From Caldifarciminota bacterium (GTDB lineage: Bacteria; Hydrothermota; UBA3073): a DNA stretch of 64,000 nucleotides. The stretch lies in the NCBI GenBank assembly GCA_030606335.1, contig JAUWGP010000011.1:1-64000 (forward strand), written 5' to 3'. Position numbers and translations under genes: made by a program. Positions 2,857-59,607 of the stretch are shown one piece after another; the first letter of the stretch is position 1; every line of letters begins with the position of its first letter. The notes under the pieces are model-generated. The model was not told the DNA's origin, did no database searches, and saw only the letters and a list, made by a program, of their open reading frames with translations.

Positions 2857-3303
2857 TTACATGCTCTCTAAACTTCGGAATTTTTCTACAAATAATTGGG
2901 GTGTGTCACAGTTGATAAGTTCTTTTAGATTTTTAGTTTTCTCTGTTACTTTCATAAGTTTTGCCAGTATGTTTATGTACAATTTTGTCTCACTCTTGGG
3001 GGCAAGTATAAGGAAAATAAGTTTGGCAGGTTTTCCATCCAGGGCATCGAACTCAATACCTTCTTTTGAAACACCAACCAGAAGTGTCATTGCGGGTACA
3101 CCATCTATTCTTGCATGTGGAATAGCAAGCCCATTACCAAATCCTGTTGACTCAAGTTCCTCTCTCTTCATTATACCCTGGAGTATGCTTCCTTTATCTA
3201 AACCTTTAGACGCAAGAAGATGCTTTAAAATACCTTTCTTACTTTTTGCCTTAAGACCTATTATTATGTTTTCTTCTATCAGATACTCTGATACGTTTAT
3301 CAT
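2857..3303 (-). CDS. PTS EIIA (fructose/nitrogen type) domain protein
   Basis: STGFGNGLAIPHARIDGV with conserved His; LIFLILAPKSETKLYINILAKL. Confidence 0.85.
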   Translation of the reverse strand: MINVSEYLIEENIIIGLKAKSKKGILKHLLASKGLDKGSILQGIMKREELESTGFGNGLAIPHARIDGVPAMTLLVGVSKEGIEFDALDGKPAKLIFLILAPKSETKLYINILAKLMKVTEKTKNLKELINCDTPQLFVEKFRSLESM

Positions 3304-3396: not shown

Positions 3397-3447
3397 GGAG
3401 TGCTGTGACCATGTTACAGTGATGCATTAACACGGTTAATGCACTCC
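3397..3447. repeat. two-hairpin palindromic element, GGAGTGC...GCACTCC
   Basis: GGAGTGC TGTGACCATGTTACA gTGATGCATTAACACGGTTAATGCACTCC; same layout at 51703, 58770, partial at 53806. Confidence 0.75.
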
Positions 3448-3503: not shown

Positions 3504-4181
3504 CTATCGCCTCTCGTAATCTTTATCCAATTTAAATGGGTTAAAATTCGTATGGTAATCGTAGACATCAATGCCTTCTTTTCTCTTTAAGAAAGCAACT
3601 ATTATATATGTGAATGGGGTAAAGAGCACCTCGAAACCTGTCTTGAAAATATAATTGGATATTATAACAGAAAGAAGTAGAGAGTTGGGGATTTTACCGA
3701 AAAAAGCAAGTGCGCAAAATATTGCAGTATCAATACCTTCGGCAACCATGGTTGAAGAAATAGTCCTTGTAAACAGCCATCTTCCCCTGGTTGCAATTTT
3801 CATTTTAGCCATTAAAAAGGAATTTGTAAACTCTCCACACCAGTAGGCAATCAGGCTGGCAAAGACGATCCTTGGTATCCAACCAATAATTGCTTCATAT
3901 GCCTGCTGATTTCCCCATCCTAAAGCTGGAGGAAGCTTTCCAACTACAATAAATACAAATGCTGCTAAAAAGTTTGCTGCAAATCCTGCCCATATCGTCC
4001 TTCTCGCTTTTTTATATCCGTAAACCTCGGTTAATATATCACCAAGGATATACACAACTGGAAAAAGGATGGTGCCACCATCAAAAGTAAATGGTCCAAA
4101 ATTCAGTATCTTTGCAGAAACTACATTTGACACAAGCAAAACTGTGACGAATAGTATAATAATGAAATCATAGTATTTCAT
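3504..4181 (-). CDS. queuosine precursor transporter (VUT/YhhQ family)
   Basis: FTFDGGTILFPVVYILGDILTEVYGYKKARRTIWAGF; multiple TM segments. Confidence 0.88.
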   Translation of the reverse strand: MKYYDFIIILFVTVLLVSNVVSAKILNFGPFTFDGGTILFPVVYILGDILTEVYGYKKARRTIWAGFAANFLAAFVFIVVGKLPPALGWGNQQAYEAIIGWIPRIVFASLIAYWCGEFTNSFLMAKMKIATRGRWLFTRTISSTMVAEGIDTAIFCALAFFGKIPNSLLLSVIISNYIFKTGFEVLFTPFTYIIVAFLKRKEGIDVYDYHTNFNPFKLDKDYERR

Positions 4182-51702: not shown

Positions 51703-51757
51703 GGAGTGCAATAGCTTGCTATTGCATATCAATTGCATCACCAAGGTGATGCACTCC
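51703..51757. repeat. two-hairpin palindromic element
   Basis: GGAG-TGCAATAGCTTGCTATTGCA-TATCAAT-TGCATCACCAAGGTGATGCA-CTCC. Confidence 0.9.
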
Positions 51758-53805: not shown

Positions 53806-53830
53806 TGCATCGACATGGTCGATGCACTCC
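53806..53830. repeat. single-hairpin version of the GGAGTGCA/TGCACTCC element in a 5' UTR
   Basis: TGCATCGAC-ATG-GTCGATGCA-CTCC. Confidence 0.8.
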
Positions 53831-53844
53831 ATAGAGGAGTTCTC

Positions 53845-55065
53845 ATGAAGACTTGTCTTGACAACGGGTTGAGATTGGTTAATGAAGAGGTAAAAGGTGT
53901 AAGGTCTGTGTCACTCGGAATTGCATTCCAAACAGGCTCTGTGCACGAGGATAAAAGGCAGTCTGGTATATCACACCTTATAGAACATATGCTTTTCAAG
54001 GGTACTCCGAAAAGAGATGCCTACAGGATAGCAGTTGAGGCTGATTCTCTGGGTGCTGAGCTTAACGGCTTTACAACAAAGGAATTTACCTACTACTATG
54101 CAAGATTTCTTGACCAACATTTAGAGAAGGTTTGGGACATACTTACAGATATAATACTCAATCCTTCATTCAACAGGGAAGATTTAGAAAAAGAAAAGGG
54201 TGTGGTTATTGAAGAAATAAGAAACTCAAAAGATTCCCCTGAAGAGGAAGTCTTCCGACAGTTATCGAACTGTCTCTATTCCGGTCATCCCATCTCATCT
54301 CCTATATTAGGGCAAGAGGATACCGTAAGGAAAATAGAAAGAAAAAATCTAATCGAATTCAAAAATAAAAGATATTGTGGCAACAATGCAATAGTGGCTG
54401 CTTCTGGAAAACTCTCTTTTGATAGGATAAAGGAACTTGTTGCCTCAACACTTACATCGCTTCCCAATAATGTACAGAAAACAACCTCAAAACCATTTCC
54501 AGAAGAGACTATAAAATTCAAGGAGAAGAAAAAAAAGGACATATCACAGGCTCATATTGCAATAGGAAGAAGGACCTTCAAATATAACTCACCTTACAGA
54601 TATCCGGCACTCATCCTAAACACCCTTTTGGGCGGTTCAATGAGTTCGCGTCTTTTTCAACGTCTACGTGAGACAGAAGGACTTGCATATAATATATTCT
54701 CATTTCTTCAATTCTTTAGTAATACTGGAATCATGGGAATATATCTCGCAACAAATCCTTCAAAACAGAAAAAAGCGATCGGTTTAGTTTTTGAGGAATT
54801 AAAAAGATTAACAAAAGATGGATTGAATAAGAACGAGCTAAAGAACACCAAAGAGCACTTGAAAGGGGGATTTATACTTGGGCTTGAATCAACAGTTAAT
54901 AGAATGGTAAGAATACTGAAAGAGGAAATGTATCTCCAAAAGGAAATTTCAATTGATGAGATACTGCAGTCGATTGAAAATGTGAAAGAGGATGAGGTTA
55001 TATATCTTGCGAGAGAGTTCTTCAACAAAGACCAATTCGCAGTCTCGATAGTTTCGCCAGAATAG
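53845..55065 (+). CDS. M16 (insulinase-like) zinc peptidase
   Basis: HLIEHMLFKGT (HxxEH); start at MKTCLDNGLRLV with GAGGAG upstream rather than ORF start 53815. Confidence 0.92.
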   Translation: MKTCLDNGLRLVNEEVKGVRSVSLGIAFQTGSVHEDKRQSGISHLIEHMLFKGTPKRDAYRIAVEADSLGAELNGFTTKEFTYYYARFLDQHLEKVWDILTDIILNPSFNREDLEKEKGVVIEEIRNSKDSPEEEVFRQLSNCLYSGHPISSPILGQEDTVRKIERKNLIEFKNKRYCGNNAIVAASGKLSFDRIKELVASTLTSLPNNVQKTTSKPFPEETIKFKEKKKKDISQAHIAIGRRTFKYNSPYRYPALILNTLLGGSMSSRLFQRLRETEGLAYNIFSFLQFFSNTGIMGIYLATNPSKQKKAIGLVFEELKRLTKDGLNKNELKNTKEHLKGGFILGLESTVNRMVRILKEEMYLQKEISIDEILQSIENVKEDEVIYLAREFFNKDQFAVSIVSPE

Positions 55066-58641: not shown

Positions 58642-58715
58642 GCCCCTGTAGCTCAGTGGATAGAGCACCGGTCTTCGGAACCGGGTTGGCGAGAGTTCGA
58701 ATCCCTCCAGGGGCA
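58642..58715 (+). tRNA. tRNA-Arg (anticodon TCG)
   Basis: GCCCCTG TA GCTC-AGTGGATA-GAGC ... CCGGT-CTTCGGA-ACCGG ... GAGAG? GTTCGAATC ... CAGGGGC A. Confidence 0.93.
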
Positions 58716-58769
58716 GGGTGAAAAAAGGAATAATTTTTTAGGCGATTATAAAACATCTGACACTAAGAT

Positions 58770-58817
58770 GGAGTGCATCACCTTGGTGATGCATGCAGTA
58801 GCAAGCTACTGCACTCC
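58770..58817. repeat. two-hairpin palindromic element
   Basis: GGAG-TGCATCACCTTGGTGATGCA-TGCAGTAGCAAGCTACTGCA-CTCC. Confidence 0.92.
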
Positions 58818-58932
58818 AAACATTCATTATAAACAAAAATAGTATTGCATGGTGTCAGGAGTTACATCCTGAGGCAATAAAAGTAAGATTTAGTGTCAAA
58901 ACTTTTATAATTACCTTGATTTTATATTTATT

Positions 58933-59607
58933 ATGGATACAAGGTTAGGACATAGGAAGAGACTGCGAGATAAATTTATTATGTCAGGACTATTAGGGTT
59001 GCATGATTATGAGATTGTAGAACTCTTACTAACCCTTGGTACTCCGAGAAAGGATTGTAAACAAGAAGCAAAGATACTTATAAAAAAATTCAAGACATTG
59101 CGTGGTGTTATAGAGGGAGAACCTGATGAGCTACGGAGGGTATGTGGTATAGGTCCTAAAAATATCTTCGGTATAAGATTAATAAAAGAGGTAACAGAAA
59201 GATATCTCAAAGATAAAATTTTAAAGAATGATGTTTATAAAAATCCACAGGATGTATTTGACTATCTATATGTTTCAATGAGAGGTATTAAAAAAGAGGT
59301 CTTCAAAATTCTTTTTTTAGATATCAAAAACAGGCTGCTTGATATAGATAATCTATTTAATGGAACAGTCAACTCATCAGCTGTTTATCCCAGGGAAATT
59401 GTAAAAACTGCTTTAAAAAAGAACGCAAGTTCTGTCATTCTCGTACACAACCATCCATCAGGAGACCCAACCCCATCACCTGAAGACAAAACGATAACTC
59501 AAGATGTTGTAAATGCACTTAACCCGGTAGATATCAGGGTTTTGGACCATATTATAATTGGAGATAATAAATACTTCAGCTTTGCATCTGAGAAATTGCT
59601 TGATTAA
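58933..59607 (+). CDS. radC: RadC family (JAB/MPN domain) protein
   Basis: HNHPSGDPTPSPEDKTITQDV; DHIIIGDNKYFSFA. Confidence 0.93.
   Translation: MDTRLGHRKRLRDKFIMSGLLGLHDYEIVELLLTLGTPRKDCKQEAKILIKKFKTLRGVIEGEPDELRRVCGIGPKNIFGIRLIKEVTERYLKDKILKNDVYKNPQDVFDYLYVSMRGIKKEVFKILFLDIKNRLLDIDNLFNGTVNSSAVYPREIVKTALKKNASSVILVHNHPSGDPTPSPEDKTITQDVVNALNPVDIRVLDHIIIGDNKYFSFASEKLLD

Follow-up and report, generated by a model that had tools for sequence, protein, structure and literature searches.

The REP superfamilies described to date carry the tag GT[AG]G or CGTC (PMC3733652). The elements reported here are most like the GTAG REPs and REPtrons of E. coli, Stenotrophomonas and Marinomonas (PMC8266576, PMC2817692, PMC3733652), with which they share a short hairpin, a 5' tetranucleotide, arrangement in inverted pairs, scattered intergenic copies and a Y1/HUH TnpA flanked by elements; they also resemble the S. 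maltophilia REP, a perfect palindrome with a short loop. They differ in their tag, GGAG in place of GT[AG]G, and in a TnpA clade that is altered at positions aligned with the GTAG contacts of the E. coli enzyme. Pseudomonas REPINs (PMC3116915) are likewise dispersed units of two inverted REPs, tied to a RAYT, but here the tag is GGAG, the stems within a unit are unlike each other, and copies are few (13 with the exact outer motif). CGTC-tagged REPs and Rickettsia palindromic elements, which are also palindromes found inside genes, are set apart by their CGTC tag, and no transposase dedicated to them has been reported (PMC3733652).

The window, a stretch of 64,000 nucleotides (G000:C37:1-64000), belongs to a 2.43-Mb draft assembly of 59 contigs that is 90% complete. 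The original prediction had described full two-hairpin copies at three places and a partial one at a fourth, and we verified all of these positions and their arms (Table 1). It was also right that the outer GGAGTGC...GCACTCC boundary is constant: shuffles of the window gave 0.00 expected matches to GGAGTGC(10-40)GCACTCC, and GGAGTGC(15-45)GCACTCC occurred 13 times in the genome but never in the reversed control. The claim that inner hairpins differ between copies while keeping their pairing held with one correction, namely that the stems also differ between the two halves of one copy, because each copy consists of two different REPs back to back. The 48-nt REPIN at 58770 has identical copies in the same genome at C6:6684, C24:2651 and C33:36374, and the 3397-3447 element has a near copy, with flanks in common, at C49:77514. 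The 175-bp MITE-like unit around the 58770 REPIN has a second copy, 92% identical and also carrying a family-A REPIN, at G000:C33:36246-36455; it is a carrier, which the REPIN itself does not need.

Table 1. Elements of the window and the larger unit that encloses one of them
Feature	Coordinates	Strand	Description
REPIN family A	58770..58817	.	GGAG + REP1 hairpin (58774-58793, loop TT) + inverted REP2 hairpin (58794-58813) + CTCC; letters GGAG/TGCATCACC-TT-GGTGATGCA/TGCAGTAGC-AA-GCTACTGCA/CTCC; intergenic; its neighbours are a tRNA gene (58642-58715) and a RadC-like gene (58933-59607)
MITE-like unit, 175-bp	58741..58915	.	encloses the 58770 REPIN; imperfect 26-bp terminal inverted repeats GGCGATTATAAAACATCTGACACTAA / TTAGTGTCAAAACTTTTATAATTACC
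REPIN family A, 7-nt spacer	51703..51757	.	REPs 51707-51726 (TGCAATAGC-TT) and 51734-51753 (TGCATCACC), spacer TATCAAT; letters GGAG/TGCAATAGC-TT-GCTATTGCA/TATCAAT/TGCATCACC-AA-GGTGATGCA/CTCC; intergenic
REPIN family B, 3-nt loops CAT/ACG	3397..3447	.	GGAG + CTGTGAC-CAT-GTTACAG (single G/T mismatch) + TGA + TGCATTAAC-ACG-GTTAATGCA + CTCC; intergenic; the flanking ORFs, 2857-3303 and 3504-4181, are both on the minus strand
Single REP, family B type	53806..53830	-	hairpin TGCATCGAC-ATG-GTCGATGCA then CTCC; GGAG tag on minus strand; just 5' of the ATG at 53845 that probably starts an M16-peptidase-like gene

Each REP is made of GGAG followed by a near-perfect hairpin of 7-9 bp with a TGC...GCA base. 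These are palindromes in the 20-40 bp range that carry an unpaired tetranucleotide on one side and occur in many dispersed copies, and most of them lie in inverted pairs that form a unit (REPIN/BIME) ending in GGAG and CTCC. The resemblance to REP elements noted in the original prediction was thus upheld, but the tag, GGAG instead of GTAG or GTGG, had escaped it. None of the window elements carries the 5' tag GT[AG]G of the GTAG superfamily or the 5' tag CGTC of the CGTC superfamily. A GTGG tag followed by a spacer was ruled out, since GGAG is not preceded by GTG. The three bases at this place are T[AT]T in 26 of 31 cases in genome G082, 24 of 28 in G050 and 38 of 57 in G000, the window's own genome, as against 2 of 135 in the set from other phyla, where TCC is commonest. 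This context may reflect an insertion preference or may be part of the element.

A genome-wide covariance-model search, which the original prediction had called for, found copies well beyond the window. With an E threshold of 1 it returned 97 matches in G000, many of them one element read on both strands, and by eye we estimate roughly 60 distinct places behind them. Two main families were found in this genome, A with the loop TT and B with 3-nt loops (CGT, CAT, ATG), along with single REPs bearing other stems and mixed pairs of unlike REPs. The outer motif was matched in 26 of the 120 genomes searched, several of these being lone matches with no clear structure, and at least four times in 12 of the 120, the window's own genome included. 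A pattern scan of named genomes yielded paired family-A copies in Anaerolineales HSG24/HSG25, Desulfobacterales HSG2, Desulfococcaceae HSG8, Methylococcaceae and others; the unpaired matches look like chance. The genome of the window also holds long forms (L051-L061, e.g. G000:C56:54987-55068 and G000:C8:54321-54398) with an additional hairpin of 29-30 nt, CCC...GGG(G)TAAAC, which separates arm from loop in the second REP and has the same position in families A and B; it may be a nested insertion or an older long form. Short head-repeat arrays of GGAGTGCATTAT 12-mers precede elements at L065 (G000:C56:71300-71400) and L063.

The stems covary in a larger copy set. We took 35 distinct 49-nt copies, picked by the outer motif alone because selection on inner pairing would be circular, and dropped the one whose hairpins did not fit the 8-3-8 layout. 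In the remaining 34 copies, 98.9% of stem cells were paired against 84.1% with the 3' letters shuffled, 83 cells carried double-sided changes against 21.6, and the covariation score was 0.439 against 0.153; as the sequences are related, these shuffles overstate significance, whereas sliding the partners by 1-3 columns preserves relatedness, and there covariation collapsed. Double-sided changes fell in 10 of the 16 stem pairs. The alignment shows a fixed GGAG tag, a fixed hairpin base, a near-fixed apex and a variable middle. For the matched changes on both arms, which had been put down to either selection on structure or an unusual copying mechanism, the former is the simpler reading and the latter is not needed.

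As had been stated, no transposase is visible in the window, and its contig lacks a Y1 transposase altogether. A search for a Y1/HUH transposase elsewhere in the genome had been proposed; we found none of the cognate kind there, but relatives do have one, with GGAG elements flanking the gene. The best PF01797 matches had GTAG hairpins nearby and none of the GGAG-TGC type, and the 120 named loci held a single Y1 gene, without a GGAG hairpin. This early negative was misleading because PF01797 ranks the GGAG-associated TnpA clade low: the L388 protein of Anaerolineales HSG25, whose gene sits between identical GGAG REPINs, scores just 23.8 bits with this profile. It nevertheless matches NCBIfam NF047646 REP_Tyr_transpos at 107.8 bits and the solved E. 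coli TnpA-REP 4er8, and the proteins of its clade have the HuH motif and the catalytic Y with Y---NP of TnpA-REP/RAYT proteins. Used as a query, the L388 protein identified homologous proteins in the phylum of the window, and many of their genes have GGAG hairpins beside them. GGAG hairpins lie on both sides of the TnpA gene at L388, L401, L402, L403, L405, L406, L407, L416, L417, L418 and L421, and on one side at L409, L415, L419 and L420. A Y1/HUH gene flanked by its cognate REPs, which is what makes a REPtron, is therefore present in relatives and in Anaerolineales HSG25, but was not found in G000.

The association did not depend on presupposing the tag. When hairpins near genes of the GGAG clade were collected regardless of tag, they were preceded by GAGT at 11 of 17 loci, which is GGAG with the next T left unpaired, and by GGAG at 6, whereas GTAG was most frequent near the other clade's genes (8 of 14 loci). 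Loop type tracks the sub-clade, with CGT in L401, L402 and L409, GAT/GGT in L403, L407 and L420, and TT in L405, L406 and L383. A member of the TnpA clade is carried by 8 of the 12 genomes with at least four REPINs as compared with 9 of the 108 others (hand count; p 1e-5); G020, G023 and G100 have REPINs without a clade member. Together with the covarying stems, the flanked transposase genes of relatives bear out the likeness to REP/REPtron elements that had been suggested, and the elements are a new, GGAG-tagged variant of the REPtron, whose cleavage, mobility and tag recognition we infer. Two side observations were made at these loci: GCACTCCGAAAACGTCT repeats lie ahead of the TnpA gene of HSG25 (L388:1270-1430), and at L411 a different hairpin, GCTACTCCA-TT-TGGAGTAGC, which may be a further type of REP, lies on either side of a sub-clade TnpA gene (L411:1421-1440, 2059-2078).

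A tree of 85 Y1 proteins placed all 18 GGAG-flanked TnpAs in one clade of 25 (SH-aLRT 99), which held none of the 18 GTRG-flanked TnpAs. This tree omitted L386 and L214, two Y1 loci with GGAG hairpins nearby. In a second tree that includes both, they lay outside the clade and are exceptions to the tag-clade rule, so that 18 of 20 GGAG-flanked TnpAs were inside it (SH-aLRT 96; Fisher p 6e-9, such p-values overstating independence since the labels come from related loci). Residues W94, Q95, E100, H101 and R104 of E. coli TnpA-REP lie in the GTAG-reading region (PMC6006769), and we assigned the equivalent positions through the 4er8 alignment and the clade alignment. Q95 is present in 14 of 14 GTRG enzymes and in 0 of the 13 GGAG enzymes covering the region, which have W, F or H instead; GGAG enzymes also lack H101, have mostly lost R104 and keep D at position 100. 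Two unlabelled sub-clade members, L404 and L412, retain Q at position 95. The GGAG-flanked members are further marked by an N-terminal HxPxH, NHYH and a C-terminal DDF. The HYH in most clade members recalls TnpA subclass 2.8, which has Y inside the HuH motif but reportedly accompanies GT[AG]G REPs and has a proline-rich domain at its N-terminus (PMC6006769), a comparison made by description only. Tag positions 3-4 (AG) were proposed to choose the CT cleavage (PMC8266576), and GGAG retains AG there. We lean towards the view that in one TnpA-REP clade the tag shifted from GTAG to GGAG along with the residues that contact it, which would make the GGAG elements a third REP superfamily, spread over several phyla, although the tag-residue correlation lies along one branch and alone cannot show cause.

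A profile search of G000 found no GGAG-clade TnpA in this 90% complete assembly, and for this reason its copies look like orphans: they are probably relics of enzymes lost from the lineage, or their enzymes are missing from the assembly. Three long RAYTs of G000 with a DnaA-like C-terminus (L014-L016) were rejected as cognate enzymes, having no GGAG hairpin within 1.5 kb and being placed outside the GGAG clade in the tree. G001 and G002 each have a sub-clade TnpA member with no GGAG hairpin adjoining. G001 is ~97% identical to G000 across 50-60 kb, and its sites could be compared directly. At 51703 the intergenic stretch is 57 bp, with no REPIN, in G001 and 637 bp in G000; at 58770 G001 has a different insertion; at both sites the whole intergenic stretch differs. 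The 53806 REP is common to both genomes, with a decayed stem in G001 (GTCGAT to GTAAAT). At none of these three sites does one genome show a clean insertion and the other an intact empty site.

REPs within genes were known already (PMC3733652), and some of the present copies are read in frame. Outside the window, five family-B copies of G000 sit in one frame and at one spot of Por_Secre_tail-type C-terminal domains, after TVIS/TVIT L and before an IYD motif, where they encode ECINxVDAAVTxSQHS. Similar in-frame copies occur in G001, G002 and G023. Because the in-frame state is common to ortholog pairs, and because one G000 copy has decayed while its G001 ortholog (95.5% identical upstream) is intact, the insertions seem to be old and to have been inherited and dispersed along with the domain, and not to have arisen anew each time. 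Among the G050 and G082 copies that were read and are open in this frame, none lies in a secretion-tail domain. PF18962 has 127 matches in G000, and other repeat-like in-frame peptides (such as YQLSVISTPPITDDLSPIT and LPSSPFS) lie near the same spot in the Por_Secre_tail-type domains of L003-L007, L024 and L050.

Very probably, then, the elements are non-autonomous GGAG-tagged REP/REPIN palindromes, presumably spread in trans by the Y1/HUH TnpA clade, the window copies being probable relics. A REP is GGAG plus a short hairpin whose base is TGC/GCA and whose loop, 2-3 nt long, is specific to the lineage, and a REPIN is two REPs tail to tail. By analogy with known TnpA-REP enzymes, the transposase would bind the hairpin in single-stranded DNA, pick the cleavage site with the tag as guide, and spread copies in trans by strand transfer. 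The middle of the stem would drift through paired changes, because pairing and loop would matter more than the stem letters. This fits what is described for S. maltophilia, where a stem mismatch affects or nearly abolishes cleavage and block changes are mild.

The paired changes could also come from hairpin self-correction, one arm templating the other in replication, rather than from selection for being recognised by a transposase. In short palindromes such as these stems, template switching can copy arm onto arm. Yet correction alone predicts neither that base, apex and tag stay fixed while the middle varies nor that loop type follows the TnpA lineage, and some old copies hold mismatches uncorrected (53806 in G001; the C14 copy). 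We consider it improbable as the explanation, but it may act alongside selection. Less probable still is that the elements are mainly functional RNA structures, such as terminators or mRNA-stability hairpins, with paired changes reflecting selection on transcripts. All four window copies are indeed intergenic, some near gene starts or ends, and stable hairpins could work in RNA; however, an Rfam search matched tRNAs only and no family to the elements, the GGAG outside the stem is invariant, elements of the same kind flank TnpA genes, copies also occur within coding sequence, and presence varies between near-identical genomes. A secondary RNA role is possible. Equally unlikely are MITEs whose GGAGTGC...GCACTCC, or larger unit, is read by a DDE transposase as terminal inverted repeats: whole elements do have the same inverted motif at both ends, and the 58770 copy is enclosed by a unit whose 26-bp ends are inverted and which recurs at C33, but that unit is absent from most copies, GGAG elements of relatives flank Y1 genes of one clade, and a two-ended DDE element predicts neither the common single REPs (half elements) nor the mixed REP pairs.

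REPs are common repeats of bacterial genomes, and the GGAG-tagged REP reading bears on how TnpA-REP enzymes recognise their elements. Surveys restricted to GT[AG]G or CGTC tags miss the GGAG elements. Tag reading by TnpA-REP is only partly understood, from E. coli, Stenotrophomonas and Marinomonas, and a clade whose tag differs and whose residues show correlated changes offers a ready comparison for tag and residue swaps.
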